The notes beneath the pieces were generated by a model. The model saw nothing but the letters and a program-made list of their open reading frames with translations. It was not told the DNA's origin and ran no database searches. This document shows, one piece after another, positions 2,305-14,450 of a stretch of 20,371 bases of DNA (position 1 is its first letter; each line of letters begins with the position of its first letter). The DNA is from a virus: the IMG/VR virus record IMGVR_UViG_3300025869_000133, positions 1 through 20,371 of that record; one strand, given 5' to 3'. Both the position numbers and the translations under genes were made by a program.

Positions 2305-2342
2305 GTAGTAATACTCACATAAATGTGATATAATACTACTAT
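2302..2342. promoter_or_regulatory. Inverted repeat over the start of the 2341 gene, with an extended -10 box inside
   Basis: ATAGTAGTA (2302-2310) pairs perfectly with TACTACTAT (2334-2342), and the last two bases of the right arm are the AT of the ATG. Inside is a second perfect repeat, TCACAT-AA-ATGTGA (2315-2328). Between the inner repeat and the right arm is TGATATAAT, an extended -10 promoter (TATAAT at 2329-2334). In mRNA coming from upstream the start codon would be paired. Transcripts from the 2297 late box would lack the left arm. The inner palindrome could also be an operator. Confidence 0.6.
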
Positions 2343-3540
2343 GGGCGCAAAGAATCTACATTTAGAACACTTAGAAGACGAGATTATCAATCAAGGGATT
2401 GATGGTGGTCGTGGTGCTATAAACTTCTTACGAGGTCTTAGAGATATGCTGAAGGGTAGTTCTAAGAAGTCTGTTAATATGACCGTCAAATGGGATGGTG
2501 CTCCTGCAATCTTTTGTGGTAAACATCCCGAAACCAATCAATTCTTTGTTGCAAAGAAATCACTATTCAATAAAGACCCACTATATTATACTTCAGAACA
2601 ACAAATAAAAGATGCACCCGAACTAAGTGGTACACTAGAGTCTAAATTCTTAGATTCATTCAAGTATTTGTCTGCACTATCATTTTCAGATATCTTACAG
2701 GGTGACTTAATGTTCACTGATGATAAAAAGATGGAAGATATAGATGGAACCCAATGTGTGACCTTTCAACCAAATACAATAATGTATGCTGTCGATATCA
2801 ATTCAGAACTTGGTGGAAAGATTGCAAACGCAAAACTAGGAATAGTGTTTCACACTACTTACACTGGTACAACAATTGATGACTTAAGTGCATCCTTCGG
2901 TGCAAAACTTCCAAGTGGAAGTAGCACAGATGTGTGGATGGATGATGCATCGTATAAAGATGTCAGTGGTAAAGGGTCGATGACTGCAAAGGAAACAGTT
3001 TCACTTACACAAGAACTATCTAAAACAGGTAAAGCATTTCACGGTATCAAAAGAAACGACTTACAGAAGTTTACTAAGATACAGGATACTATTGCAATGA
3101 AAGGTGCAGGTGCATCTTATAAAACATATTGCAACACTTTAATAAGACAAGGGAAGTTTAATCCAACATATAATGGATACATAAAACACTTTGAAAACTA
3201 TTGGAAAGATAAAGTAGTCGCAAAGGTCAAGATGGAAAAGACTAAAAAAATTAAAACAGAGATTGGACAACAACTCCTTGCAGAACTTCGTGGTCTTAAA
3301 TCCTTTATTGTAAATCTAACTGCATTTATGGGATACCTAGTGTCTGCAAAACAGATGATTATAACCGTACTAAATAGAGTAAAGAGTATAGGAACTTTTA
3401 AAAAAACTGCAACAGGATTTGAAACAGTAAACCCCGAGGGATATGTTGCAATTGATAATGATGGTAAAGCAGTCAAACTCGTAGATAGAATGGAGTTTGC
3501 ATTTAATAACTTTACTGCAATCAAAAACTGGGATAAGTAG
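2341..3540 (+). CDS. Conserved phage protein with nucleotidyltransferase/ligase-like motifs (DUF6267-like)
   Basis: I recognise the overall pattern as a conserved protein of marine T4-like phages that I recall as DUF6267; its function is not established. Length 399 residues. The segment VNMTVKWDGAPAIFCG carries K50-W-D-G53, matching motif I (KxDG) of covalent nucleotidyltransferases such as DNA and RNA ligases, where the Lys takes AMP. Downstream, LQGDLMF (119-125) is placed like motif III, and GIVFHTTYTG (167-176) like motif IIIa. I cannot assign motifs IV and V with confidence, so activity is inference. The C-terminal third is basic and helical. The stop codon TAG directly abuts the ATG of the basic protein at 3541, and the nucleotidyltransferase-kinase follows, suggesting a co-expressed set. 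Translation start is set in an inverted repeat. Confidence 0.85.
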   Translation: MGAKNLHLEHLEDEIINQGIDGGRGAINFLRGLRDMLKGSSKKSVNMTVKWDGAPAIFCGKHPETNQFFVAKKSLFNKDPLYYTSEQQIKDAPELSGTLESKFLDSFKYLSALSFSDILQGDLMFTDDKKMEDIDGTQCVTFQPNTIMYAVDINSELGGKIANAKLGIVFHTTYTGTTIDDLSASFGAKLPSGSSTDVWMDDASYKDVSGKGSMTAKETVSLTQELSKTGKAFHGIKRNDLQKFTKIQDTIAMKGAGASYKTYCNTLIRQGKFNPTYNGYIKHFENYWKDKVVAKVKMEKTKKIKTEIGQQLLAELRGLKSFIVNLTAFMGYLVSAKQMIITVLNRVKSIGTFKKTATGFETVNPEGYVAIDNDGKAVKLVDRMEFAFNNFTAIKNWDK

Positions 3541-3915
3541 ATGAAATCTTTTATAGAAATATTTAAAGAAATGCAAGAAGCAGACTCTATGCAAACTCGT
3601 CTTAAGAAAAAGAAAGCATTCAGAAAAAACAAACATAAAATTCTTCAGAAACGCAAAAAGGCAATGAAGAGGAAAAACCTAGACCCTGTAAAACTTGCAA
3701 AACGTGCTAAGAAACAAGCAAGAGATATGGTTGCAAAGAAAATGTTAAAGGGTCAATCAAAAGCAAAATTAGGTATGAGTGGTAAAGAAGCACTCGAAAA
3801 GAAATTAGATAAGAAAAAGGGTGCAATAGCAAAACTTGCTAAAAAACTTCTACCATTAATACGCAAAAAAGAAGCATCAAAAACTAAGAAAGTGAAGAAA
3901 GAAGATGACAAATAA
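3541..3915 (+). CDS. Very basic small protein, candidate head-internal DNA-binding protein
   Basis: 124 residues, more than a third Lys or Arg, with almost no aromatic residues after position 27. It is predicted to be helical and likely binds nucleic acid by charge. It begins MKSFIEIFKEMQEADSM, which resembles the T4 capsid-targeting sequence MKTYQEFIAE in its M-K-x-aromatic opening and E at position 10, but lacks a perfect [L/I]-x-E site. The segment RAKKQARDMVAKKMLKG (55-71) and the C-terminal KKGAIAKLAKKLLPLIRKK look like a recurring phage module known to me only as hypothetical. The gene starts at the base after the preceding stop codon and overlaps the next gene by 11 bases, so coupling is likely. 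A role in packing DNA in the head is inference from charge and context. Confidence 0.8.
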   Translation: MKSFIEIFKEMQEADSMQTRLKKKKAFRKNKHKILQKRKKAMKRKNLDPVKLAKRAKKQARDMVAKKMLKGQSKAKLGMSGKEALEKKLDKKKGAIAKLAKKLLPLIRKKEASKTKKVKKEDDK

Positions 3916-5203
3916 AAATTTTACAAGTTGGTTATCAGAAGCAAAGGGTAAAGGTGCAGTATTTACTTTCGGTAGATTCAATCCACCCACAACAGGACAC
4001 GAAAAACTTGTTAACAAACTAAATGGAGTTGCAAAAGGATATGGAGATGCACTCCTATTCTCATCTCATTCAAATGATAAAGTTAAAAATCCATTATCCC
4101 ACAAAGATAAGGTTAAATATCTAAAAGCATTTTTTGGTAAAAAGGTAACAGTTATAGACACAGATGTTAAACAAGTGTTCCAAATCTTAGTGTTTCTTTT
4201 TGATAAAAAATATACAAAAATTAGAATGGTTGTTGGGTCAGATAGAGTAAGAGAGTTTGATACACTTCTAAACAAATACAACTCGGTTAAAGCACGACAC
4301 GGTTTCTACAAATTTGAGGAAATAGAAGTAATCTCTGCAGGTGAAAGAGACCCCGACTCAGATGATGTCAGTGGAATGTCTGCAAGTAAGATGAGAGAGT
4401 TCGCAGAGAAAGGTGACTTTGATTCATTCAAACAAGGAGTTCCTTCTACTGGTGTAAGATTTGCAGAGAAACTATATAAATCAATCCGTAAAGGAATGGG
4501 TATTGCAGAAAGTACACTACCGTCATATATGCTGGAAGATTTGATACAAGAAGGAGTCTATGACCCTGGCACATTCAAAGCAGTATTTCTTTCAGGTGGG
4601 CCAGGAAGTGGTAAATCTGCAGTAGTCAAAAAGTTGGCATTAACTGCACTTGGTTTAAAAATGGTCAACACTGATAGAGCATTTGAGAACGGATTAAAGA
4701 AAGCAGGAATGTCACTTGACCTTAGAGGTGCAGACTTTAGTAAAGTAGACCCTATCCGTGCAAAAGCAAAAAAGATTACAGGTAAAAACTTAGATGGATA
4801 TATCGATGGAAGACTAGGTCTTATCTTTGACACTACAAGTGCAAAGTCGGATAAGATTAAGTCCTACAAAAAACTGTTAGATACATTAGGATATGAATAC
4901 AAAATGGTATTTGTTAATGCAAGTCTAGACAATGCACAAAAAAGAAATGACTTAAGGTCTAGAAAACTACCATCTGCAATTGTAAAGAAAGATTGGGACG
5001 CTGCACAAAAAAATGCAAAAGAGTATCGAACAATTTTTGGTAAAGACTTTGTAGAGATTACGAATGACGATGACCTTGCAAGTCTTGACAAAAAGGCAAA
5101 TTCACTATACAGTAAACTGTTAGGTTGGTCTACTTCATTCCCTAAAAACAAAATTGCACTACAATGGAAACAACGAGAGTTGGATGCAAAACGAACTAAA
5201 TAG
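3905..5203 (+). CDS. Bifunctional nucleotidyltransferase and P-loop kinase-like protein
   Basis: 432 residues with two enzyme domains. Domain 1 (about 18-195) is a HIGH-superfamily nucleotidyltransferase: GRFNPPTTGH at 23-32 is the nucleotide-binding motif, VVGSDR at 109-114 is conserved, and MSASKMR at 158-164 matches the ISSTxxR motif. Domain 2 (about 224-405) is a P-loop kinase: FLSGGPGSGKS with Walker A at 231-238, then VNTDRAF (the Asp-Arg seen in zeta-toxin-like kinases) and IFDTTSAK. The arrangement recalls NadR (NMN adenylyltransferase plus ribosylnicotinamide kinase), but the substrate is unknown. The N-terminus MTNKNFTSWLSEA has L-S-E at 10-12, and the linker has IAE (200-202) and IQE (214-216), all possible prohead-protease sites. 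The start overlaps the preceding gene by 11 bases. Confidence 0.87.
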   Translation: MTNKNFTSWLSEAKGKGAVFTFGRFNPPTTGHEKLVNKLNGVAKGYGDALLFSSHSNDKVKNPLSHKDKVKYLKAFFGKKVTVIDTDVKQVFQILVFLFDKKYTKIRMVVGSDRVREFDTLLNKYNSVKARHGFYKFEEIEVISAGERDPDSDDVSGMSASKMREFAEKGDFDSFKQGVPSTGVRFAEKLYKSIRKGMGIAESTLPSYMLEDLIQEGVYDPGTFKAVFLSGGPGSGKSAVVKKLALTALGLKMVNTDRAFENGLKKAGMSLDLRGADFSKVDPIRAKAKKITGKNLDGYIDGRLGLIFDTTSAKSDKIKSYKKLLDTLGYEYKMVFVNASLDNAQKRNDLRSRKLPSAIVKKDWDAAQKNAKEYRTIFGKDFVEITNDDDLASLDKKANSLYSKLLGWSTSFPKNKIALQWKQRELDAKRTK

Positions 5204-5210
5204 TAGTATG
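5196..5210 (+). promoter_or_regulatory. Late promoter box predicting a leaderless transcript
   Basis: CTAAATA (5196-5202) overlaps the stop of the preceding gene and is followed by GTAGT and ATG at 5208. In T4 late promoters the last A of the box is at -6, so +1 falls exactly on the A of this ATG. The identical spacing occurs at 13106-13120. Confidence 0.55.
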
Positions 5211-6347
5211 TTAGATTTAATAAGAAATAAGATAAAAACTCTAAAAGAAGATGCAGTCTCAGATGTTAAAGCAAAACACGTAGACGAATTAGAGAGACTA
5301 AAGACTAGACAGGAAAGAGAACTAGAACAATTAAAATCAAGACAAGTACGACAAACAGATACTGCAAAATCCAATGTAGATGCAGAAAAGGAAAGAGAGA
5401 AACAAAGAAAGTCAGTATCATCTGAAGAGACATCGGTAAAACAAGACAAAGATGTTAAGGATAAAAAAGGCACTCAACCTGCAAAATACTATGCAGGAGA
5501 TATGTCTAAGTCTACAAAAGACAAAAGAGATGCACACTTCAAAGCAAAAAAGAGTGGCCCAGCACCTGGCGACCACGATGCAGAAACAAAACCATCTCAA
5601 CATACTATAAAGTTTAAGAAAATGTTTGGTGAAGACAGTTTAGAAGAAGATAACGGTCTCCAAGCAAAAGCAGATAAGTCGGGTATATCAAAAGGTATAT
5701 TACAGAAAGTTTACAACAGAGGACTTGCTGCATTTAAGACTGGTCATAGACCTGGCGCAACTGCACCTCAATGGGCAATGGCAAGAGTTAATTCATTCAT
5801 CACTAAAGGTTCGGGAACTTGGGGTGGTGCAGATAAAGACCTTGCTAAACAAGCAGGTGGTAAATCAGAGTCAATAGAAGAAGGAACTGATATCAAAAAA
5901 CAACTCAGCAAGATTAAGGGGTTAAGTAAGAAACAACTAGAAACATTGTCAACAATGAACACTTCACAACTAACAGTTTTAGTTCAACAGTTATCTTCAT
6001 TAGTAATGGGTGAACAAGACGAGTGTTGGGACGGATACACACAAAAAGGTATGAAAAAGAAAGGGGACAAAATGGTTCCTAATTGTGTTCCCGAAGAAAG
6101 AGACTATAAAAAAGAGTACGAAAACTACCAAGGTAAACCTGAACAAATTAAAAGACGTGCAAAGAGAAATGAAGCACGAAGAAGTTTAAAGGACAGAAAG
6201 GATATTAAAGGAAAGGATGTTCATCACAAGGATAACAATCCTATGAACAACGACAAATCAAATCTTTCCATAGTTAGTAAAAATTTTAATAGAAAAGAAC
6301 CTAGACTTAGGGAATTAAAGAACAAAGGAGCATTACCAAAATGTTAA
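5208..6347 (+). CDS. Modular phage protein: coiled coil, three conserved modules and a C-terminal HNH motif
   Basis: 379 residues from the ATG at 5208; an upstream TTG at 5154 would run into the preceding gene. Modules in order: N-terminal segment MLDLIRNKIKTLKE with an LKE site at 12-14; a charged coiled coil (15-75); a short module with KYYAGDMSKSTKDKRDAHF (from about 92); a module from about 149 to 220 with GILQKVYNRGLAAFKTGHRP, which I recall as a DUF5824-like phage domain; a Cys module (C273-W-D-G-Y to N-C293-V-P-E); and an HNH-type end with DVHHKDNNPMNN (337-348) and NLSIVSKNFNR. The paired His and Asn fit an HNH nuclease, though activity is unproven. LEE and IEE sites lie between modules. 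The stop overlaps the next gene by 7 bases. A head-internal nuclease is one possible role. Confidence 0.85.
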   Translation: MLDLIRNKIKTLKEDAVSDVKAKHVDELERLKTRQERELEQLKSRQVRQTDTAKSNVDAEKEREKQRKSVSSEETSVKQDKDVKDKKGTQPAKYYAGDMSKSTKDKRDAHFKAKKSGPAPGDHDAETKPSQHTIKFKKMFGEDSLEEDNGLQAKADKSGISKGILQKVYNRGLAAFKTGHRPGATAPQWAMARVNSFITKGSGTWGGADKDLAKQAGGKSESIEEGTDIKKQLSKIKGLSKKQLETLSTMNTSQLTVLVQQLSSLVMGEQDECWDGYTQKGMKKKGDKMVPNCVPEERDYKKEYENYQGKPEQIKRRAKRNEARRSLKDRKDIKGKDVHHKDNNPMNNDKSNLSIVSKNFNRKEPRLRELKNKGALPKC

Positions 6348-6874
6348 AAGAATATCACGAAATAGGAACAGACTCATATAGAAACTATCTTCAGAGAACA
6401 ACTCCTGAACAATCTATAGAAGAGTACGTCAAAGAATCGCAAAAGAATCTAAAAAGTCAAAAACAAAAACACTTTAGTCAAGTGTTCCAAAACCCTTTAA
6501 AAGGATTCCCTTACAACGAAGAGATTGAAGTAAGGAAAATTGAAGAGAAGTATAAACCTTACATAATGAAAGGTTTTGAAAGAGTTACAGACTTGTACGT
6601 CCAATTCAGAGGAAATGGAGAAGAGAAAGACTTCGCAAAAGCAAAGAAGATGGTTATGGATTATTCTAAGAAACATAAACTAGATATCAAAGACAATCCA
6701 AGAAACAAAGTATTCGGAACACCTCAAGAAGGTTCAAGTGCATATAAAATAAGTCTTTTTGCAAAGTTCACTAAAGATAAAGACCACGATTTTGCACCAT
6801 TATACAAACAATTATCTACATTAAAGACTGCAGAAGACCACGGTGGTGGTTATGCAGAACCAATTAAAAAATGA
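6341..6874 (+). CDS. Hypothetical protein, 177 residues
   Basis: I do not recognise this protein. It is hydrophilic, rich in Lys, Glu, Tyr and Phe, with no membrane segment, signal peptide or clear catalytic motif. The first third (1-50) is helical and charged. The middle part (about 75-150) alternates beta-like stretches such as VTDLYVQF and AYKISLFAKF with a helix DFAKAKKMVMDYSKKH, suggesting a small alpha/beta domain. It ends with HGGGYAEPIKK. The start overlaps the preceding HNH-motif gene by 7 bases, and the last codons overlap the next gene by 4 bases (ATGA type), so it is embedded in a translationally coupled run. The opening MLKEYHE has an L-K-E but is too short to be called a targeting sequence. 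Confidence 0.8.
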   Translation: MLKEYHEIGTDSYRNYLQRTTPEQSIEEYVKESQKNLKSQKQKHFSQVFQNPLKGFPYNEEIEVRKIEEKYKPYIMKGFERVTDLYVQFRGNGEEKDFAKAKKMVMDYSKKHKLDIKDNPRNKVFGTPQEGSSAYKISLFAKFTKDKDHDFAPLYKQLSTLKTAEDHGGGYAEPIKK

Positions 6875-7419
6875 AGACATTAAAGGAACAAGCACTAGAT
6901 ACAGTTATTCTTGACCTACAAGAATCTAATACAAATTTTATTGATAATCCTTTCAGATTGGGTTCATATATGTATTTTGCAACTATTAAAGAAGTGCGTA
7001 ACCTAGTTGCAGAACAAAGATATAGATTAACAGAAATTGATAAAAATATTTTAGAAACAGATTTAGGTGAGTATGAAGTTTATGAAGGAGATTTAGTTCC
7101 ACTTGATTGTCCTATGATGGATATAGTTGAAGAGGACGATAAGAAAGAACCTGAATTAAATAAACCTAAAGCAGGTGGTTCTAAGAAGTACTATGTGTAT
7201 GTTCGTGACCCTAAAACAAAAAATGTTAAGAAAGTTTCTTGGGGAGATACTACAGGACTTAAAGTTAAGATAGACGACCCTAAAGCACGAAAATCTTTTG
7301 CTGCAAGACACAATTGTTCTTCTGCAACTGATAAAACTAAAGCATCATATTGGGCGTGTAGACTTCCTCATTATGCGAAACAACTCGGATTATCGGGTGG
7401 TGGAAACTTTTTTTGGTAG
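6871..7419 (+). CDS. Two-module conserved phage protein (DUF5872-like C-terminus)
   Basis: 182 residues. The N-terminal segment MKTLKEQALDTVILDLQES has L-Q-E at 16-18, a possible prohead-protease site. Module 1 (about 20-95) contains FRLGSYMYFATIKEVRNL and YEGDLVPLDCP. Module 2 (about 105-182) contains KKYYVYVRD, VSWGD, DDPKARKSFAARHNC and SYWACRLPHYAK. I recall this as the DUF5872-type phage domain of unknown function; its two cysteines (149 and 162) and His residues could bind metal, but this is a guess. The protein ends in the Gly- and aromatic-rich GGGNFFW. It overlaps the preceding gene by 4 bases and is followed by a 28-base gap with the ribosome site of the next gene. Codon use is like the neighbours. 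Confidence 0.83.
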   Translation: MKTLKEQALDTVILDLQESNTNFIDNPFRLGSYMYFATIKEVRNLVAEQRYRLTEIDKNILETDLGEYEVYEGDLVPLDCPMMDIVEEDDKKEPELNKPKAGGSKKYYVYVRDPKTKNVKKVSWGDTTGLKVKIDDPKARKSFAARHNCSSATDKTKASYWACRLPHYAKQLGLSGGGNFFW

Positions 7420-7424
7420 ACCTA

Positions 7425-7447
7425 TATAATTAGGAAGGAAATATATT
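7425..7447 (+). promoter_or_regulatory. Ribosome site and possible promoter of the 7448 gene
   Basis: AGGAAGGA (7432-7439) is a strong Shine-Dalgarno sequence eight bases before the ATG. TATAAT (7425-7430) just upstream could be a -10 box, but a transcript starting there would include only part of the Shine-Dalgarno sequence, so promoter function is doubtful. Confidence 0.4.
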
Positions 7448-7702
7448 ATGAAAGAATTATATCACACTTATGCGAGGGATGGTAAGTACGCAGAGGTCTT
7501 TAAGACTTCTCAAGGTTGGGAGGTAGACCTATACACTGGTGACACCTTAATAGAGACTAGAGAAGTACATAATCACTCAGAAAGTTATGCAGAAGATGTT
7601 GCAGATAACTGGGTTCACAATATATTAAAAATCGAGAAGGAAGGTTCCTTCTATGGGTACAACCAAAAGGATGATAACTTCTATCCTGGCTTAGATGACT
7701 AA
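7448..7702 (+). CDS. Small hypothetical protein, 84 residues
   Basis: I do not recognise a family. The protein starts MKELYHTYARDGKYAEVFK and looks like a small beta-rich domain: short strands around EVFKTSQGWEVDLYTGDTLIETREV, then a helix (SESYAEDVADNWVHNILKI) and an acidic tail. This strand-strand-helix pattern is common in small soluble phage proteins and says little on function. There is no membrane segment. A strong Shine-Dalgarno sequence (AGGAAGGA) fixes the start. It overlaps the cupin-like gene by 8 bases, and the two are probably translated together. There is no capsid-targeting-like N-terminus, unlike the flanking genes. Confidence 0.75.
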   Translation: MKELYHTYARDGKYAEVFKTSQGWEVDLYTGDTLIETREVHNHSESYAEDVADNWVHNILKIEKEGSFYGYNQKDDNFYPGLDD

Positions 7703-7976
7703 CCCATATACAGAAAAAGTTTTAGAACAACACGGGACAGGTAAGAAATTTATTTTAAGAACCTTTGATGAGACCGTTGACGAAAAGGATTTAATATGGC
7801 ATCGTGATAAAAAATCACGAACAATTCATATTTTAGATGGGATTGGATGGAAATTGCAAATGGAAGATAAACTTCCAGTAGAGTTATGTGTTGGTCAAGA
7901 CCACTTCATAATGAAAGACAGTTACCATAGAATCATAAAAGGTGAGAGGAACTTGACTATTCGTATAGAAGAGTAA
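7695..7976 (+). CDS. Small cupin-like protein, 93 residues
   Basis: The pattern LIWHRDKKSRTIHIL, then GWKLQMEDKLPVELCVGQDHFIMKDSYHRIIKG, matches small cupin-like proteins I know from marine phages: two short beta motifs with His residues (WHRD at about 34-37 and YHRIIKG at about 77-83) and the turn before the second motif. It is expected to form a single beta-barrel domain that might bind a metal or small ligand. The usual cupin metal ligands are only partly present, so enzymatic activity is uncertain. The N-terminus MTNPYTEKVLEQHG is not a clear targeting signal. It overlaps the preceding 84-residue gene by 8 bases and is followed by tandem late promoters for the next gene. Confidence 0.75.
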   Translation: MTNPYTEKVLEQHGTGKKFILRTFDETVDEKDLIWHRDKKSRTIHILDGIGWKLQMEDKLPVELCVGQDHFIMKDSYHRIIKGERNLTIRIEE

Positions 7977-7984
7977 GTATCAAA

Positions 7985-8013
7985 CATAAATATATTATAA
8001 ATAATAGTACTAT
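7985..8013 (+). promoter_or_regulatory. Tandem late promoter boxes with a palindrome at the start codon
   Basis: CATAAATA (7985-7992) and a perfect T4 late consensus TATAAATA (7996-8003) lie 11 bases apart. By T4 spacing the second would start transcription at about 8009, three bases before the ATG at 8012. ATAGTACTAT (8004-8013) is a perfect 10-base palindrome that includes the AT of the start codon. Confidence 0.65.
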
Positions 8014-8590
8014 GAGTTATAAATCAGAAAACTGGAAAGACAAATTAGACCAAGTGCGTGGACACATTGCACTAAAAGAAGGTTCTGTAGCACAAACTGC
8101 AGATGAAATCATCAATCAACAGATTGAAGAGGAACTTAACAATTCATTCAACGAAGTAATAGAAGAAGATGTTCTATTAGAAGCATCTGCTGGTGCAATG
8201 ATTGATAAGTTGTTCAATCTTAAAGGTGATAAAGATTCACAATACGGTGTTGCAAAGATGCTATCTATGACTGGTGTCAAAGTAGTCCAATCAATGCAGA
8301 AACAAAACCCAAAAGGATTCGAAAAGTTAATTGTTCAGTTAGGTAAAGAGAAAAAGATTACACTACCTACCAACAATAAACTAATGGCAATGTTCAAAGA
8401 TGCAGGTGTTAAACCTCTCAAAGATGAAATTGACCTAACCAAAGAAGAAAAACTTTCAGTAGAGAAATCTGCAGAAAAACTAACAGAAAGAAATATGTTA
8501 GGTAGACTTGCGAAACAATTACAATTAAACGAAGAAGGTAAACAAAAAATGTTTGATTACTTCGAAAACGGGAAAATTACAAATGATTAA
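8012..8590 (+). CDS. Hypothetical late protein with protease-site-rich N-terminus
   Basis: 192 residues, no recognised family. The first 57 residues are acidic and helical and contain [L/I]-x-E triplets at 21-23 (LKE), 38-40 (IEE), 50-52 (IEE) and 55-57 (LLE, followed by A). This resembles a removable pro-region of the kind the T4 gp21 protease trims, but some triplets are expected by chance. The remaining part (58-192) is helical, with AGAMIDKLFNLKGDKDSQYGVAKM and VKVVQSMQKQNPKGFEKLIVQLGKEKK. No catalytic motif is visible. Two late-type promoter boxes precede it, the second a perfect TATAAATA, supporting late expression. The end overlaps the next gene by 8 bases. It may be a head-internal or scaffold-type protein; this is inference. 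Confidence 0.8.
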   Translation: MSYKSENWKDKLDQVRGHIALKEGSVAQTADEIINQQIEEELNNSFNEVIEEDVLLEASAGAMIDKLFNLKGDKDSQYGVAKMLSMTGVKVVQSMQKQNPKGFEKLIVQLGKEKKITLPTNNKLMAMFKDAGVKPLKDEIDLTKEEKLSVEKSAEKLTERNMLGRLAKQLQLNEEGKQKMFDYFENGKITND

Positions 8591-8915
8591 TGAACTCTCA
8601 AAAGACCTACTTGCTGATGTCAAAGCAATAATGGAAAAGAAATTAGACCCTGTCAATGACAAGGAAAACGATAAGAAATTTAAAGACCGTAAAGACAAAG
8701 ACATCGATAACGATGGTGATGTAGATGGTTCAGATGAATATCTTCATAAGAAACGTGCTGCAACTGATGATGCAATTGATGGTGGCAAGAAACCTGCAAA
8801 GAACGAAGACCAAGGACAATTTATTTACGCTGCTAAACAAGCAAAGAAAAAAGGTGAAAAGGAATTTATGTTTGCAGGGAAAAAATATTCCGTGGATGTA
8901 AAAGACGAGGAGTAG
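8583..8915 (+). CDS. Small protein with an EF-hand-like calcium-binding loop
   Basis: 110 residues from the ATG at 8583; a TTG at 8553 is open upstream but lies deep in the preceding gene. The loop DIDNDGDVDGSD at 40-51 has Asp at positions 1, 3, 5 and 12 and Gly at 6, as in EF-hand and dockerin calcium loops, followed by EYLHKKR. I know this arrangement as a recurrent one in marine phage proteins. The C-terminal part (about 78-105), with FIYAAKQAKKKGEKEFMFAGKKY, is a second small module seen in other phage proteins. The N-terminus MINELSKDLLADVKAIME ends in I-M-E at 16-18, a possible prohead-protease site. Only one EF-hand is present; pairing would need a partner or dimer. The overlap with the preceding gene is 8 bases. 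Confidence 0.82.
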   Translation: MINELSKDLLADVKAIMEKKLDPVNDKENDKKFKDRKDKDIDNDGDVDGSDEYLHKKRAATDDAIDGGKKPAKNEDQGQFIYAAKQAKKKGEKEFMFAGKKYSVDVKDEE

Positions 8916-8919
8916 TTCT

Positions 8920-10653
8920 ATGAACCTATTTCAACAATTAAAAGAAACTGCAAGAAAAGAATCTCTTAACGAGATATCTCAACAAGCAAAGATTCAAAAA
9001 GCGATAGATATTGCAACCTCAATGGGTGGTAATATGACAGGTGCTGTTAAAAGAATCGAACAAATCAAAAAAGGTTTATCCAAAAATAAGAATGTTGCAA
9101 ATGCATTAAGATTAGCAAACGAAGAAACAATCTCAGAAGATTACAAAAAAGTAATCAAAATGTTCCCAAGAGATAACGACTGGAAAAAACTTATCACAAA
9201 ACATAGACGTGCAATTGATGATTTCAGAAACAATAACAAAGATTTACCTTCTAAAGTAGAAGATGAATTACTTACTTGGGCATCACAAACTGGTGAAGTC
9301 AGTGGTAAACACGATGCAGAAGACTTCATAATGTCAATCCTTGATGAAAGTACTATATCAGAGAACTATAGAAAACTTGCAAAACACGGTATGGGAACAG
9401 AGACACCCAAGTCAGTCAAAGTTGGAACAGAGATTGATTACTACCAAAAAGATGGTGCAAAATATATGGGTAAAGTTGTTAAGATGGATAAACAATCTTA
9501 CACTGTAAAGGACGACAAGACTAGTAAAACACATAAGTTTTTCTACCACGACAGAATTAAAGCTGCAAAACTTCTTAAACAAGGTGATAACATACAAGAA
9601 AAAGTAGAGTATGCAGAATACAAATTCAGAAACAAGGGAGATGCTCAGAAAGCATTAAACTACTTTAAAAGTCAACAGTTAATCAAACTAGACATCAACG
9701 ATGATGGATTGAGTCAAGGTGAACTTGCAATCGATGCTGGTAAGAAAGATATGACTAAACAACACAAAGAAGTGTTAAAGAACTTCAAACCAAAAGTCCT
9801 CACAACAGAACAAACTATTTCAGAGGGTACTTGGGCAGTTCCCGATTCATATCCAAAATTAGTTGCATTACAAAAGTTCTTAAGAAAACCACATAAAGCA
9901 AAAACTGCTAAAGATGTAGAGAAGTTTACAAATGATGTATACGATTTCTTTGGAGACGATTCGTTCTTTGACGATTTAGGTGCATATGGAACTACATTGC
10001 CAGGTGGAGAAAAGGACGAAGACGGAAAACCACATTCTGCAGAGTATTTAAAACGTGCAAACCAATACAATAAAATTAAAAAGGGAACAGACTTAAATTT
10101 AGTTCTTATTAAACAATTAGGTGATTGGACTGGTAATGTCCTTAAGTTTAAAGGAGTAGAAATGGTACAATTCCCAAGAGATTGGTATCTAAAAGACAAC
10201 CCTAAACACAAAGATGATGATGCACAAATTAAAGCAAAACTAGAAAGTGTTCAAGAAGGTAAAGGTATGAAAAGAGGACGTGGTAATCTTAAATTCAAAA
10301 GACAAGATTCAATCAAAGCAGAAGCAGTATCAAGTGACCAACAAGCCGCAATTGCAATCGCAAAGAAAAAGAAAAATGAATCTGTTATGGATGCATACAG
10401 AGAAATGTGGGAAGAAAACTTAAAAGAAGAGATGATTACCTACAGAGTTAAAGGAATGCAGAGACCTGAAGAAGACAAATTCAAAAAATCTGCAAAGATG
10501 ATGGGTTTAAAGATTACTATGGACAAAGGTAGAGACGATACAGTAATCGTTATGAGTGGAACTAAGAAGAAACTCAGAGACTTTGATTCAGTTGCAAGAG
10601 GTAAATCTTCATACGGTGACCCTTCAACAATCAAACACTTTGACGAGAAGTAG
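8920..10653 (+). CDS. Modular 577-residue protein, candidate head-internal polyprotein
   Basis: No enzyme motif is recognised. The protein is a string of hydrophilic modules. It opens MNLFQQLKETARKESLNE with LKE (7-9) and LNE (16-18). The short motif (T)ISE recurs at 71-73 (preceded by EET, followed by DY), 146-148 (preceded by EST, followed by NY) and 300-302 (preceded by EQT, followed by GT). IQE is at 225-227 and VQE at 444-446. Modules between them are 19-73 (ATSMGGNMTGAVKRIEQIKK), 74-148, 149-227 (a beta-rich small domain), 228-302, 303-446, and a C-terminal part with AVSSDQQAAIAIAKKKK (469-485), a second targeting-like stretch (490-503) and a final basic module (506-577). [L/I]-x-E is the cut site of T4 gp21. 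GAGGAG seven bases upstream fixes the start. Confidence 0.85.
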   Translation: MNLFQQLKETARKESLNEISQQAKIQKAIDIATSMGGNMTGAVKRIEQIKKGLSKNKNVANALRLANEETISEDYKKVIKMFPRDNDWKKLITKHRRAIDDFRNNNKDLPSKVEDELLTWASQTGEVSGKHDAEDFIMSILDESTISENYRKLAKHGMGTETPKSVKVGTEIDYYQKDGAKYMGKVVKMDKQSYTVKDDKTSKTHKFFYHDRIKAAKLLKQGDNIQEKVEYAEYKFRNKGDAQKALNYFKSQQLIKLDINDDGLSQGELAIDAGKKDMTKQHKEVLKNFKPKVLTTEQTISEGTWAVPDSYPKLVALQKFLRKPHKAKTAKDVEKFTNDVYDFFGDDSFFDDLGAYGTTLPGGEKDEDGKPHSAEYLKRANQYNKIKKGTDLNLVLIKQLGDWTGNVLKFKGVEMVQFPRDWYLKDNPKHKDDDAQIKAKLESVQEGKGMKRGRGNLKFKRQDSIKAEAVSSDQQAAIAIAKKKKNESVMDAYREMWEENLKEEMITYRVKGMQRPEEDKFKKSAKMMGLKITMDKGRDDTVIVMSGTKKKLRDFDSVARGKSSYGDPSTIKHFDEK

Positions 10654-10654
10654 T

Positions 10655-11209
10655 ATGAGAGACTTTTTCAAAACCTATCGAGATATGCATTTAGTTGAAA
10701 TCAAACAACAAGAAGTTGATGCACTAAAGAAATTATCTAAAGAAATGCAATCAGTTCTAAAAGGTTATCAGAAGATTGTTGGAATGGGTGATAAAGAACT
10801 CAAAGATAAGAAGTACAACAAAGACTATGAAGCAGTTCTTAAAGCAAGAGATGTTATCTTACAACTTATTGGTAAAGTAAACACTCAAAAGATTCTCAAT
10901 AAAGAAGAGACAACAGTAGAGTTAGACGAAGGTCTAATACCAATGTATAAGAAAACTAAGTTTGAAGGTAAAGAGTTCGACAGAAAGAAAGAAATTGCAA
11001 TGATTAAGAAGATGATACAAGCAATTCATAAAGTTTCAAAGATGCAAGATAATATGCAATACACTGCTGAAACAGGTGGTGGAACTACAGGTGGAAACCC
11101 AAATAAAGTTTGGGAAAATCTAAGAGATGCAGAAAGAGCATTGATTGATTATATGGGTGGTGTTGAAAGAGGTAATTATGATGGTGTCATTGATATGGAC
11201 AGAGACTAA
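10655..11209 (+). CDS. Hypothetical protein with capsid-targeting-like N-terminus
   Basis: 184 residues from the ATG at 10655, which follows the preceding stop codon by one base; a longer frame opening at 10556 lies within the preceding gene and is unlikely. The N-terminus MRDFFKTYRDMHLVEI is amphipathic with L-V-E at 13-15, resembling the T4 capsid-targeting sequence. The rest is helical and charged: KKLSKEMQSVLKGYQKIVGM, then ARDVILQLIGKVNTQKIL and a region with IAMIKKMIQAIHKVSKM. A Gly-Thr-rich linker (ETGGGTTGGNPN, about 140-151) separates a C-terminal helix. The helical hairpin pattern suggests a coiled-coil structural protein; I do not recognise a family. The last base of its TAA is the first base of the next gene's ATG. 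Confidence 0.8.
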   Translation: MRDFFKTYRDMHLVEIKQQEVDALKKLSKEMQSVLKGYQKIVGMGDKELKDKKYNKDYEAVLKARDVILQLIGKVNTQKILNKEETTVELDEGLIPMYKKTKFEGKEFDRKKEIAMIKKMIQAIHKVSKMQDNMQYTAETGGGTTGGNPNKVWENLRDAERALIDYMGGVERGNYDGVIDMDRD

Positions 11210-11754
11210 TGGATAGAGTAGATGCAAGGTTTAAACTCTTTAAAGAAAAATTAAAGAAACTGGGATATGCAAAGAAAGATGCAAAAGAAGTCAACAAAAT
11301 TGTAGAGAAACAAGGTGACTTCGGAATGATGTCTGATGCAGGTAATAAAAAGATTGCTCGTGCAGTTTCCCAATCAAAGAATGAGAATGACCTTCGTGCA
11401 AAGTTAGAGAAAATCTCTAAAATGGCAGGTGGTAAGTATGCAGAAGCAGGAGAAGATGCAGTAATAGATTCAGCACTAGGTGCATTGAATGATAAATCTA
11501 CTGGTTCACAATCTTGGGCAGACAAGAACATAATGGTTCAACTAGGAAATTACAGAGACCTAACCAAAGATGGAGAGGTTTCAACAAACGATAACAAAAA
11601 AAGTAAAGTGAAAGCAAAGGACGCTGCACTAGTTTACAACACTTTAATGAAAGTTAAAGCACCTGTTCGTACTAAATACATACAGATGTTACAGAAAGAC
11701 TCCAAGTCTTTCAAAAAGACTTTTGATACTATATTAAAAGTCGCAAATAAATAA
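11209..11754 (+). CDS. Hypothetical protein, 181 residues
   Basis: I do not recognise a family. The protein is helical, basic in the first 40 residues (MDRVDARFKLFKEKLKKLGY) and mixed later. Two blocks are visible: residues 1-85, with KKIARAVSQSKNENDLRAKLEKISKMAGGKYAEAG, and 86-181, ending in a region with YNTLMKVKAPVRTKYIQMLQ followed by a basic tail. There is no membrane segment, signal peptide or metal motif, and no targeting-like N-terminus. It shares one base with the stop codon of the preceding gene, the tightest coupling in the region, so the two proteins may act together. The 3' end carries AATAAATA (11746-11753), one mismatch from the T4 late box, which could serve the next gene. Confidence 0.78.
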   Translation: MDRVDARFKLFKEKLKKLGYAKKDAKEVNKIVEKQGDFGMMSDAGNKKIARAVSQSKNENDLRAKLEKISKMAGGKYAEAGEDAVIDSALGALNDKSTGSQSWADKNIMVQLGNYRDLTKDGEVSTNDNKKSKVKAKDAALVYNTLMKVKAPVRTKYIQMLQKDSKSFKKTFDTILKVANK

Positions 11755-11769
11755 AGAGAGGAAAACAAA

Positions 11770-12054
11770 ATGGCATTATGGGGATTATTAGACAACGAAG
11801 CTTCTAAACCAAAATATCTTAACGATGGTGATAAAGCAGAATGTTATGGTGCTGATACAGCTGAGGTCGGTGCATCTAGTGGTGTAACTTCAGAAGGTTG
11901 GGTCTTAAGAAAAGCAGTAGGGTCAAGAACTCAATTTGAAACATTGGTTGCAATGTCTTCAGGTTCAATGGGTGCTGACGTTGCAGACTTTGATGACGAT
12001 TCAGACGTAGCAACACCTGATGTTGATGACGATACAGTATTAGCAGATAGTTAA
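11770..12054 (+). CDS. Small acidic protein, possible virion protein
   Basis: 94 residues. The first 70 contain LNDGDKAECYGADTAEV and EGWVLRKAVGSRTQFETLVAMSS; I recall the pattern GWVxR...ETLVAM from small marine phage proteins often found near structural genes, but no function is known to me. The last 25 residues are strongly acidic, almost only Asp, Val, Ala, Ser and Thr (VADFDDDSDVATPDVDDDTV), and likely disordered. There is no signal peptide or membrane segment. The start is set by GAGAGGAAAA nine to fourteen bases upstream. A late-like box AATAAATA (11746-11753) ends 16 bases before the ATG. By T4 spacing the transcript would begin near 11759, leaving an 11-base leader. Confidence 0.75.
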   Translation: MALWGLLDNEASKPKYLNDGDKAECYGADTAEVGASSGVTSEGWVLRKAVGSRTQFETLVAMSSGSMGADVADFDDDSDVATPDVDDDTVLADS

Positions 12055-12078
12055 GATTTAAACGCATAGGAAAAAATT

Positions 12079-12513
12079 ATGAAAAATTTTAGAGATTTCA
12101 TTACAGAACTTTATAGACCATCAACATTCTTTGGTGCAGGTCTTTCTTCAATGAAAGTACCACACGATATAACTGATGCTGATGTTAAGTCAACAGTGAA
12201 TGCTATACTTGGACACACCGCTGTATCCGAGTTTTTAAATCCAAGTGCTGCAATAGGTCAAGTAGAATCTAAACTTGCACAAATAGGAATTAACAGAGTC
12301 AGAACTGCAGAATACGGTGAGATGCCAGTTGACGAAGAAATTACTGGAAATGGTGAAACAACAGTTTCCTTTTCGCAATTTGGAGAAATCACAGGTAAAT
12401 CAGTTGATACACCTCACGATGAGTTCGAAAAAGAAGAAAAGGTAATTGATGTTAAATTCAAGTACGAACAACTAAAAACTGGTTCATTTAAAGTTTACGG
12501 TTCACTAGTGTAA
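12079..12513 (+). CDS. Hypothetical protein with the best capsid-targeting-like N-terminus
   Basis: 144 residues. It opens MKNFRDFITELYRPSTFFG. The first ten residues match the T4 internal-protein III targeting sequence MKTYQEFIAE at M1, K2, F7, I8 and E10, with aromatic F for Y at 4, and I-T-E (8-10) is a perfect prohead-protease site. The rest (about 11-144) looks like a small mixed alpha/beta domain: helices in DADVKSTVNAILGHTAVSEF and AIGQVESKLAQIGINR, then strands TTVSFSQFGEITG and the C-terminal KVIDVKFKYEQLKTGSFKVYGSLV. I do not recognise it. TAGGAAAAA precedes the ATG. It is the last gene of the late block and is followed by a hairpin-forming repeat. Confidence 0.8.
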   Translation: MKNFRDFITELYRPSTFFGAGLSSMKVPHDITDADVKSTVNAILGHTAVSEFLNPSAAIGQVESKLAQIGINRVRTAEYGEMPVDEEITGNGETTVSFSQFGEITGKSVDTPHDEFEKEEKVIDVKFKYEQLKTGSFKVYGSLV

Positions 12514-12559: not shown

Positions 12560-12931
12560 ATGGGTCTTTTTGACAAACTAACAAATAAAAACTTCCAAGC
12601 ATTTGCTTTGAAACACTACGATGACCCTCAATGTGAGGATGTAGCAGATTTTCAAGAAGACTTGAGAAGGATTCGATATCTCAAACGATTGCTCTTCAGA
12701 CATCACGAATATGGTGAAATCAGAGAGCGACTTATGTTGAATCATCTTATATGTCTATTCAATGTTTTTGGATACGACGCTTGTATGAGGATGTTGCAGT
12801 TTAAGATACAAGAAGATGCATATTGGTCATCTATCAAAACTATGTTATTGTATATGGGATATGTGGGAGAAGATTTCTATCCATCTCTTAAATTAGATGA
12901 AGTTTTAAATGAGAGATTAAAGGATATATAA
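12560..12931 (+). CDS. Conserved phage hypothetical protein, 123 residues
   Basis: I recognise this as a small protein common in marine phages whose function is unknown to me. It is almost wholly helical, with FQEDLRRIRYLKRLLFRH, RERLMLNHLICLFNVFGYDACMRML and YWSSIKTMLLYMGY. The helices are amphipathic with many Leu, Phe and Arg residues; residues 58-72 and 94-102 are hydrophobic but too short for clear membrane spans. There is no targeting-like N-terminus. It stands apart from the late block, behind the hairpin at 12519, and two bases before tRNA-Thr. The ATG sits in TATATTATG with no Shine-Dalgarno sequence, a start context shared with genes at 1716, 13118 and 14455. Confidence 0.8.
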   Translation: MGLFDKLTNKNFQAFALKHYDDPQCEDVADFQEDLRRIRYLKRLLFRHHEYGEIRERLMLNHLICLFNVFGYDACMRMLQFKIQEDAYWSSIKTMLLYMGYVGEDFYPSLKLDEVLNERLKDI

Positions 12932-12933
12932 AC

Positions 12934-13009
12934 GCTGGTTTAGCTCAGTAGGTAGAGCAACTGATTTGTAATCAGTAGGTCGTCAGTTCGATTCCGACAA
13001 TCAGCACCA
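12934..13009 (+). tRNA. tRNA-Thr(TGT)
   Basis: Full cloverleaf of 76 bases including an encoded CCA. The acceptor stem is GCTGGTT/AATCAGC with one G-T pair. The anticodon stem is ACTGA/TCAGT around the loop TTTGTAA, so the anticodon is TGT, reading the Thr codon ACA. The T-loop TTCGATT is standard; the T-stem GTCAG/CCGAC has one mismatch. It starts two bases after the preceding stop codon. Confidence 0.93.
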
Positions 13010-13019
13010 TTTTAACCGT

Positions 13020-13095
13020 GGGGTTATAGCTCAGTAGGGAGAGCGACTGGTTTGCAATCAGTAGGTCGTGGGTTCGATTCCCTCTAACTCCACCA
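13020..13095 (+). tRNA. tRNA-Ala(TGC)
   Basis: Full cloverleaf of 76 bases including an encoded CCA. The acceptor stem is GGGGTTA/TAACTCC with one G-T pair. The anticodon stem is ACTGG/TCAGT around the loop TTTGCAA, so the anticodon is TGC, reading the Ala codon GCA, by eye the dominant Ala codon in this window. It lies 10 bases after tRNA-Thr and its sequence from AGCTCAGTAGG onward is much like that tRNA. Confidence 0.93.
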
Positions 13096-13120: not shown

Positions 13121-13705
13121 AGAGTTGTAGACACATTAATAGTATTCCGTATCCTTAAGATGTTAACCACACCTTTTGATAAGCATCCAGCATATAAGTT
13201 CGGGTTTATTGACGATAGAGGTAAAAGAATAAAACTAAAATCAGTTAAGGGTTCAAATCAGAAAGTAGAGAACAACCCAAAAACTGCAGAAGAAAAAGCA
13301 TCCCTCACTCCTTTACATAGATTAGTATTTAACCTCAAGAAGATAATAGAGAAGGTTCCTTTTGGTAAGAGTTCATTTGCATCTTATGCTGTTGCACTTG
13401 CACTGTTAAAGGAGAACCAAGTGTTATCTAATGACCAAATGTTATCATTAGAAGAACAGTTTTACCGTTGGTTAAAGGATAATGATAAAGTCTCTGTAGA
13501 TATGATTACCGAGTCAGCAGAACTCAATACACTTGAAAGAGGTTCATATAGACTCAGAAGAAAACACATTCAAAATGAAACTGAATATAGTCCTAAGACA
13601 GAAGTATTTGTAAATAACGAACACTCCAAGTATTTTGGTGTCTCAGTATATGCAGGTGTTTGTCAGAACGATAGGATATTGGTAACAGCAGATGATGTTT
13701 ATTGA
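13118..13705 (+). CDS. Conserved phage hypothetical protein, 195 residues
   Basis: I recognise the opening (VVDTLIVFRILKMLTTPFDKHPAYKFGFID) as that of a conserved protein of marine T4-like phages, but not a proven function. Two parts are visible. The first (1-115) has a hydrophobic N-terminal helix, a short Gly/Lys-rich loop (FIDDRGKRIKLKSVKG) and a helical segment with LHRLVFNLKKIIEKVPFGKSSFASYAVALALLKE. The second (116-195) is charged and ends in FGVSVYAGVCQNDRILVTADDVY. The N-terminal helix is amphipathic, not clearly membrane-spanning. The end overlaps the PAP2 gene by 14 bases. Late expression is supported by the promoter box placed directly before the start, without any Shine-Dalgarno sequence. 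Confidence 0.8.
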   Translation: MRVVDTLIVFRILKMLTTPFDKHPAYKFGFIDDRGKRIKLKSVKGSNQKVENNPKTAEEKASLTPLHRLVFNLKKIIEKVPFGKSSFASYAVALALLKENQVLSNDQMLSLEEQFYRWLKDNDKVSVDMITESAELNTLERGSYRLRRKHIQNETEYSPKTEVFVNNEHSKYFGVSVYAGVCQNDRILVTADDVY

Positions 13706-14450
13706 AGAAATCCAAACGATTAATAACCTCAAGTACTCGGACTACCAAGACCATAAGAAAGTCAAATATAAAGAGATAGAAATCTTTAGTGGAGACTGGA
13801 AGGACATAGTACTACCCACCCCACCGAAAAATGATAGTAAGCAGGTTCGTATGGAACTTGACGAGATAAAAAAGGCACGAGACAATACTACAAAATTGCA
13901 GGAACTAGAATATCTCAACACGGATGAGAATCCATATTATTATATCCAAGACTATATGGAAAAGGAAGAACTCTACTATGATGAGGAGAGAATGGTTTAC
14001 TTAGGAGAACAAGTAAGACCCATCATACGACACTACAAAAACTTATTCGATAGACCTAGACCATATCAAATTGCAGAAAAACTTGGTATTGATTTTGATA
14101 GATATATAACAAAAACATCAAAGACACCATCCTATCCTTCAGGACATACAGTTCAACCTAAGATTGTTGCTAACTATTACGCAACTATCTATCCCGAACA
14201 TAAAGATGGATTATACAATGGTGCAATAATTAGTGGAATGGGAAGAATGAGAATGGGAGTTCACTTTCCATCAGATATTACTGCAGGTCACGAACTTGCA
14301 AATAGACTTATGAAATATCTTAAATTTGATATGATGGAAGATGCACCAGTCAACGCAACAGGAAGTGCTGTCGTAGGAACTGGTAATGATGTCGCAACTT
14401 GGAGACCTAAGAAACGCAGGTCATTCAATGATGTGATGAAACGAAGATAA
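13692..14450 (+). CDS. PAP2-family phosphatase (acid phosphatase/lipid phosphatase superfamily)
   Basis: 252 residues. All three PAP2 motifs are present: KX6RP as K116-NLFDRP-R123-P124; PSGH at 149-152; and (S)RX5HX3D as R185-x5-H191-FPS-D195, with Gly in place of the usual Ser before R185. The residues that bind phosphate (K116, R123, S150, G151, H152, R185) and the catalytic His pair (H152, H191) are kept, so an active phosphatase is likely. No membrane helix or signal peptide is visible, unlike lipid phosphatases of this family, so a soluble enzyme acting on small phosphates or haloperoxidase-like chemistry fits better; the substrate is unknown. Two adjacent ATGs (13692 and 13695) could start it. 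It overlaps the preceding gene by 14 bases and ends 4 bases before the membrane protein gene. Confidence 0.88.
   Translation: MMFIEEIQTINNLKYSDYQDHKKVKYKEIEIFSGDWKDIVLPTPPKNDSKQVRMELDEIKKARDNTTKLQELEYLNTDENPYYYIQDYMEKEELYYDEERMVYLGEQVRPIIRHYKNLFDRPRPYQIAEKLGIDFDRYITKTSKTPSYPSGHTVQPKIVANYYATIYPEHKDGLYNGAIISGMGRMRMGVHFPSDITAGHELANRLMKYLKFDMMEDAPVNATGSAVVGTGNDVATWRPKKRRSFNDVMKRR

Follow-up and report, generated by a model that had tools for sequence, protein, structure and literature searches.

Organization of the gene block

The DNA analysed here (the window) is the whole 20,371-base IMG/VR record IMGVR_UViG_3300025869_000133, part of the genome of an uncultured marine myovirus of the T4-like kind. 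Its closest named relatives are T4-like marine myoviruses of the Kyanoviridae, namely Methylophilales phage Melnitz, Pelagibacter phage HTVC008M and cyanophages. Between a gp41-type helicase gene (289-1692) and a gene at about 15588-16613, which, judged by gene order and cysteine pattern, is taken to be the gp61 primase and lies next to nrdA (16610-18919), a block of 15 genes (2341-12513) sits among the replication genes; the window holds 11 other genes. In Melnitz, HTVC008M and S-SM1 the block likewise occupies the interval from gp41 to the primase; in S-CREM2 it is flanked by gp55 on one side and the primase on the other. Many of its proteins carry the triplet [LI]xE, which is the cleavage motif of the T4 prohead protease gp21 (L/I-X-E in the available excerpts of PMC9026906). 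A sequence-only reading had noticed this triplet near the N-termini and proposed that the proteins are head-internal; we find it also inside the proteins, at the junctions of shuffled domains, a stronger and newer signal that was missed by that reading, which had seen a true but weak sign of it. Proteins are named below by the first base of their genes, and the features mapped in them are all on the plus strand.

Protein 3905 is a nucleotidyltransferase-kinase chain. It opens with a leader resembling that of T4 internal protein III (IPIII), MTNKNFTSWLSE (3905..3940), with a predicted cut after E12, followed by a CoaD/NMNAT-like nucleotidyltransferase module (3941..4510; phrog_3041, E 9.8e-62) that ends at IAE|S, an inter-enzyme linker (4511..4552) that ends in LIQE|G, with cuts predicted at both of its sides, and a P-loop kinase module of the polynucleotide-kinase or zeta-like type (4553..5203; PF13671, E 3.7e-9; PF06414, E 5.6e-9). 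The junction thus reads GIAE|STLPSYMLEDLIQE|GVYDPG, and both E202 and E216 are unchanged across 47 aligned sequences. HTVC008M has the kinase as a gene of its own, starting MIPFILKE|GLYDPG, and a kinase relative in Melnitz reads MKTFAELQE|GVYDP, so that the same site heads a standalone kinase gene in HTVC008M and a fused kinase domain in the window. In an AlphaFold2 model (47 sequences, mean predicted local distance difference test score (pLDDT) 78.9, predicted template modelling score (pTM) 0.47), pLDDT falls below 50 only at residues 1-13 and 203-218, and all three sites lie within or adjoining these stretches, which are probably disordered. With a TMt of 0.68 the first modelled domain resembles phosphopantetheine adenylyltransferase, and the second, with a TMt of 0.71, a bacterial polynucleotide kinase.

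The 577-residue protein 8920 (8920..10653) joins several modules in one chain, with sites following E73, E148, E227, E302 and E503 (E codons at 9136, 9361, 9598, 9823 and 10426), the corresponding junctions being TISE|DYKK, TISE|NYRK, NIQE|KVEY, TISE|GTWA and NLKE|EMIT. Its modules turn up again in other open reading frames (ORFs), preceded there by dissimilar sequence that in most cases also ends in [LI]xE or a V/M variant of it. Leaders are also exchangeable between modules: the leader MNLFQQLKETARKESLNE (8920..8973) stands before ISQQ in the window, and its sister MNLFQSLKESARLEE stands before a different module, beginning NYRT, in the related locus L080. The AlphaFold2 model of this protein (39 sequences, mean pLDDT 72.9, pTM 0.32) has pLDDT below 50 at 69-86, 221-229 and 297-309, which contain sites 73, 227 and 302, and also at 256-266, 420-470, 484-487 and 575-577, where there are no strict sites; site 148 lies in a block of mean 63 and site 503 beside a block of 53. 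Several of the site stretches are therefore of low confidence and probably disordered in the model, for which a fold search gave no match at E 0.001.

Two further proteins hold more than one module. Protein 10655 (10655..11209) has two modules, its leader ending LVE15|IKQQ and its junction reading LDE92|GLIP (E codons at 10697 and 10928), and in locus L030 a relative of its second module stands behind the short leader MSKNLFETYKDMNQLEE|A. The 379-residue multidomain protein 5208 (5208..6347) shows, in order, LKE14, a charged stretch, SLEE147, a DUF5824 domain, SIEE225|GTDI and a weak HNH match, with homology breaks near sites 147 and 225. With several unlike domains per chain and a mosaic architecture across phages, these proteins share the general organization of polyvalent proteins.

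The triplet marks junctions of shuffled modules

To quantify this, 21 [LI]xE sites of the window were tried, ten of which were carried into a module-context count. At the eleven left out, [LI]xE is kept near the aligned place in relatives to very different degrees: 36/45 and 39/40 for E12 and E202 of 3905, 16/21 and 12/23 for E14 and E147 of 5208, 1/28 for E28 of 6341, 10/24 for E18 of 6871, 2/3 for E18 of 8583, 11/17, 12/18 and 14/18 for E23, E52 and E57 of 8012, and 4/12 for E10 of 12079, where gaps shift the alignment. The ten modules occur in 64 dissimilar contexts in relatives, with E at P1 in 58 and the full [LI]xE in 52, or 48 and 42 of 54 when the ten window rows are removed; the worst module, that behind SIEE225 of 5208, keeps [LI]xE in just 3/8 contexts.

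A test in new contexts, its rule fixed beforehand, sought the three cleanest of the ten modules in viral contigs (47, 63 and 59 loci). From these 169 loci, 4 partial matches and 119 contexts at least 40% alike to any earlier context of any module were dropped, and the remaining 46 were merged to 20, which are unlike in sequence, though some may come from related phages and the independence of the events is unproven. All 20 have E at P1, 17 have [LI]xE and 19 have [LIVM]xE, compared with a mean of 0.67 and a maximum of 4 in 5000 shuffles of residues P12-P1. A looser count that dropped just identical-DNA junctions gave 41 mutually dissimilar contexts (E in 41, [LI]xE in 34, [LIVM]xE in 39; shuffles, mean 1.5, maximum 8), but because many of these resembled earlier ones, the stricter count is the one relied on. 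We conclude that the proteins are modular and that [LI]xE, or its V/M variant, stands before the same module in unlike contexts.

The association also appears when breaks are located without reference to the motif. At 495 sharp homology breaks (after merging) from an all-against-all comparison of IMG/VR ORFs, [LI]xE lies nearby in 44%, versus 19% of random positions and 26% after shuffling in place (z 10.7). Within the window, the 14 sites of the five proteins with internal breaks gave 11.6 breaks within 10 residues versus 3.7 expected (p 5e-5), a test that leaves aside a further 9 sites, whose four proteins (2341, 3905, 6871 and 7448) show no internal break, and strict internal sites number 10 in the window versus 3.4 expected.

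N-terminal leaders

The sequence-only reading listed nine genes with capsid-targeting-like N-termini. All nine are present as ORFs, of which 5208, 8583 and 10655 begin at internal starts of longer listed ORFs, and eight carry the triplet as described: LSE12 in 3905, LKE14 in 5208, LQE18 (and LKE6) in 6871, LKE23 in 8012, IME18 in 8583, LNE18 (and LKE9) in 8920, LVE15 in 10655 and ITE10 in 12079. The ninth, 3541 (MKSFIEIFKEMQE), has none. Because these nine were selected from the 15 block genes, enrichment was counted over all 15: [LI]xE ends at residue 6-25 in 8/15 block genes versus 1/11 other window genes (Fisher p 0.024), and versus 3.8 expected from shuffled N-termini (p 0.012), a modest excess. 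In Melnitz, the count is 9/13 block genes versus 42/208 others (p 0.0003; the gene spanning the record start is omitted). Taken alone, the N-terminal triplets are weak evidence.

Homologues back some of the leaders (3905 and 12079, and in part 3541) and not others. A strict IPIII-like leader pattern, devised after homologues had been seen and permitted at any Met within the first 70 residues of the open frame, was sought in loci L001-L080, where it occurs in 68/75 ORFs of the 3905 family, 14/14 of the 12079 family and 3/8 of the 3541 family, in 1/59 of the helicase family and 1/20 of the 10655 family, and in no ORF of families 5208, 6871, 8012, 8583, 8920 or any other. The 436 plus-strand ORFs not assigned to a family gave no match either. 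Across whole gene sets the pattern is uncommon both inside and outside the block (window, 2/15 block genes and 0/11 others; Melnitz, 1/13 and 0/208; relative G001, 1/9 and 1/136; HTVC008M, 0/198); an earlier, first version of the pattern had picked out 3/15 block genes of the window and no gene of Melnitz or HTVC008M. Hence capsid-targeting-like N-termini hold for three families, and a clear leader on every listed protein does not.

For comparison, T4 IPII and IPIII start MKTYQEFIAEA, and the first ten residues of IPIII act in targeting, as stated in the excerpts of PMC9026906. In IMG/VR relatives the 3905 family begins MKTFGKFLTEAK, MKSFNKFLTEAK or MKTFNGFLVEAK and the 12079 family MKTFKDFITEG or MKKFRQFIAET; leaders differ among these relatives, and the triplet is mostly kept. 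The 144-residue window protein 12079 (12079..12513) has the IPIII-like leader MKNFRDFITE. The Lys-rich 124-residue protein 3541 (3541..3915) has a leader-like N-terminus without [LI]xE, and some of its homologues start MKSFKEFIGE or similar. In the 182-residue protein 6871 (6871..7419), with leader MKTLKEQALDTVILDLQE, the site position varies among homologues. The 192-residue protein 8012 (8012..8590) has LKE23|GS and LLE57|AS, but a cleaved leader is doubtful because the N-terminus itself is conserved. Also doubtful is the leader of the 110-residue protein 8583 (8583..8915; phrog_22379, E 1.5e-14), in which a stretch that we read as EF-hand-like follows IME18. Among the enzyme-like domains proposed earlier for the block, the nucleotidyltransferase and the kinase have profile matches, the HNH match is weak and the EF-hand is our own reading.

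Prohead protease and virion proteins

No gp21-type protease was matched within the 20-kb window fragment, and a piece of this size may lack it. In long related records that we chose, PF03420 was found in 5/5 and 6/7 (11/12 together), and a gp21-type protease is annotated in Melnitz, HTVC008M and S-CREM2. The major capsid protein gp23 provides a second comparison. T4 gp21 takes 65 residues off gp23 (PMC9958956, in the text available), where gp23 reads FLTE|AEIGG; at the matching place gp23 reads FLSE|AAPTN in Melnitz, FLGE|IANV in HTVC008M, LLTE|APTQ in S-CREM2 and TLEE|AAPL or TLSE|AAPL in IMG/VR relatives, and judging from this resemblance these sites are presumably cut as well.

Relatives of block proteins have been detected in virions of cultured phages. 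Table 3 of PMC10665884 lists the S-CREM2 block proteins gp154, gp155, gp156 and gp160 with 3, 5, 6 and 7 unique peptides. Each of these carries [LI]xE near its N-terminus, at residue 6-25 (gp154, MKNFSSFLTE|A), and the unlisted gp157, gp158, gp159 and gp161 have none, that is, 4/4 detected versus 0/4 undetected in a small sample. A putative cytidylyltransferase (T4-GC190) was detected in S-SM1 virions, according to the accessible portion of PMC3037559, and the S-SM1 protein so labelled starts MKKFSAFLNEA; cytidylyltransferase or NMNAT-like proteins are also reported, in the available part of the source, from S-SCSM1 virions. None of these accounts, in the parts available, describes a leader being removed from a virion protein.

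The virion-listed gp160 of S-CREM2 (L088, 16343-17236) resembles a chain of small Cys-containing pieces, with internal sites LEE|KKNCWPGY and ISE|GKKDACYHKV, and a similar CW..GY piece occurs in window protein 5208.

A model of head-internal cargo and its alternatives

We consider it quite probable that this T4-like marine myovirus uses the block to encode cargo for the interior of its head, made in part as polyproteins, and that the prohead protease cuts these precursors in trans. According to this model, a short N-terminal leader, clearly resembling T4 capsid-targeting sequences in some families, would bring the precursor into the prohead core, where cuts by a gp21-type protease after [LI]xE would take off the leader and part the domains from one another; a single targeted precursor would in this way give rise to several small proteins inside the head. 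Among the products would be a nucleotidyltransferase and a kinase, and 8920 and 10655 would yield pieces some 55 to 200 residues long; the released proteins would probably enter the host with the DNA. Cleavage, its assignment to gp21 and injection are inferred. The capsid-targeting-like leaders of three families, the gp21-type protease of relatives, their gp23 sites of like form and the block relatives in cyanophage virions together partly support the earlier proposal of head-internal proteins.

Several observations weigh against the model. No virion data were found for the window virus, and cutting has not been observed. Site 18 of 8920 lies within a confident helix of the model, which disfavours a cut there. 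Although the uncultured lineage gives a strong junction signal, that of a cyanophage-like set is weak, and strict internal sites are not in excess in Melnitz (2 versus 3.2 expected) or HTVC008M (4 versus 3.4). The cyanophage-like set, 40 loci fetched with the DUF6267 protein of S-SM1 together with S-SM1 and S-CREM2 stretches, under looser filters than the motif-free set and with several breaks at contig ends, gave 19% versus 14% (z 2.2), and [VM]xE did at least as well there (z 2.7). Two modules had no match among isolated phages at E 0.01, HTVC008M shows no N-terminal enrichment (4/14 block genes versus 46/184 others, p 0.49), and in the S-CREM2 stretch outside the block the triplet occurs in 2/9 detected versus 5/21 undetected proteins.

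Other points on the same side bear on the possibility that the junctions are mere acidic flexible linkers of ordinary multidomain proteins, in which no cutting takes place and the motif reflects a preference in linker composition. Glutamate is generally enriched at breaks, and positions P5-P6 are E-rich. At the motif-free breaks, [VM]xE (z 11.9), Ex[LI] (z 9.0) and [FYW]xE (z 4.1) are also in excess over random positions, and [VM]xE (z 5.6) and Ex[LI] (z 6.1) stay in excess over shuffling; at the window breaks any E is enriched (p 5e-4), as is [VMF]xE (p 0.009). Since other acidic motifs are in excess too, part of the signal is that of acidic linkers, with [LI]xE the strongest. Linker composition would, however, hardly account for the position-specific residues, with E at P1 in every one of the 20 unlike contexts and L, I, V or M at P3 in 19 while P2 and P4 vary. 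Nor are [LI]xK and [LI]xD in excess over random positions at the motif-free breaks, or [LI]E and [LI]xxE over shuffling, and [LI]xK, [LI]xD and Ex[LI] show no excess at the window breaks. Moreover, the N-terminal leaders end in the identical triplet. We therefore regard linkers without cutting as an unlikely explanation.

Another possibility is that the proteins serve an early or middle function in the host cytoplasm, or are cut there by another protease, and reach virions as carry-over, which the authors of the S-CREM2 study name as a possibility for such proteins (PMC10665884, in the part available). The position of the block among replication genes is consistent with this, and the earlier designation of these as late genes finds no promoter support, as TATAAATA occurs 3 times versus 2.06 expected and TATAAAT 7 times versus 7.74 expected. 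This proposal would nevertheless leave unexplained why the motif is that of gp21, as given in the excerpts of PMC9026906, and of the relatives' own gp23 sites, why the leaders of some families resemble those of T4 IPII and IPIII, and why cytidylyltransferase or NMNAT-like proteins appear in S-SM1 and S-SCSM1 virions as well, and we judge it highly improbable. Finally, although the modules are clearly shuffled among phages, it is least probable of all, and scarcely credible, that the motif is a preferred site of DNA-level recombination at a conserved linker sequence, a reading disfavoured by a codon test of 85 junctions in which P1 follows the background (GAA 0.78 versus 0.77) and P3 uses both Ile and Leu codons, which places the constraint on the protein and not on the DNA, and by 9-nt stretches at junctions of different modules that are on average 62% identical.

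Returning to the model of protease-cut cargo, the block belongs beside two known systems, the T4 internal proteins and the polyvalent proteins. With T4 IPI, IPII, IPIII and Alt, which have capsid-targeting sequences and are cut by gp21, it shares the [LI]xE motif, MKTYQEFIAE|A-like leaders on some families and, in relatives, a gp21-family protease. Each T4 protein loses an N-terminal piece, and Alt a C-terminal one too, as far as the available sources describe, whereas a single block precursor combines a number of shuffled domains, most of whose junctions bear a site. The polyvalent proteins known from phages and conjugative elements are likewise multidomain, mosaic and thought to enter the host with the DNA, and have been likened by their describers to RNA-virus polyproteins (PMC5512222, in the sections available, as for what follows). 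Their release is ascribed to embedded peptidase domains, whereas Pfam scans of 13/15 block proteins detected no peptidase domain and the sites match a separate head protease; the word "cyanophage" is absent from the text of that paper. In phiKZ and SPN3US a gp21-like protease processes inner-head proteins behind a short motif whose last residue is E (AxE in SPN3US), some of them at several sites, but the cuts described in the accessible parts of PMC5694885 and PMC10052503 remove propeptides, and release of multiple domains from one chain, as proposed for the block, is not described there. The cytidylyltransferase/NMNAT-like virion proteins of T4-like cyanophages (T4-GC190 and others) are related nucleotidyltransferases from a similar neighbourhood, for which a role in NAD metabolism was proposed; the available portions of these reports mention neither targeting leaders nor protease sites.

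In a literature search of open-licence PMC papers, we came across no publication that describes sites of the prohead protease between the domains of cyanophage or pelagiphage proteins. We lean, if only slightly, towards a more general view, that a DNA phage here uses polyproteins in the manner of RNA viruses, one leader importing interchangeable domains that the head-maturation protease cuts in trans into a matched set of internal proteins, with [LI]xE as a universal connector, so that cargo domains can be exchanged freely without losing targeting or release. If this is true, polyproteins processed in trans would join DNA phage biology, and the virion cargo of a marine phage group could be read from sequence, as a leader and then the domains that successive [LI]xE sites delimit. 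This set of "hypothetical" genes would gain a testable function, the new small domains would become candidate host-takeover or anti-defence proteins, and the presence of nucleotidyltransferases in cyanophage virions would be partly explained.

Other genes of the block and its surroundings

The block begins with a 399-residue DUF6267 protein (2341..3540; PF19782, E 5.9e-99), which has relatives in 402 phage records. It has no leader in the window, but homologues do carry one (Melnitz MLTLINFSKYITE|D and HTVC008M MYNDLLVE|D). Near the other end, a short protein (11770-12054) starts MALWGLLDNEASKPKYLNDGDKAECYG, matches phrog_11617 (E 5.2e-5), is without an [LI]xE site and resembles proteins annotated as "S-layer" in Melnitz, HTVC008M and S-SM1. 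Beyond the block there are a DUF7207/phrog_407 protein (12560-12931), a relative of which is present in 18 of the compared loci, tRNA genes for Thr (TGT) and Ala (TGC) at 12934-13095, and, immediately downstream of the block, a PAP2-superfamily gene (13692-14450; PF01569, E 1.3e-11).

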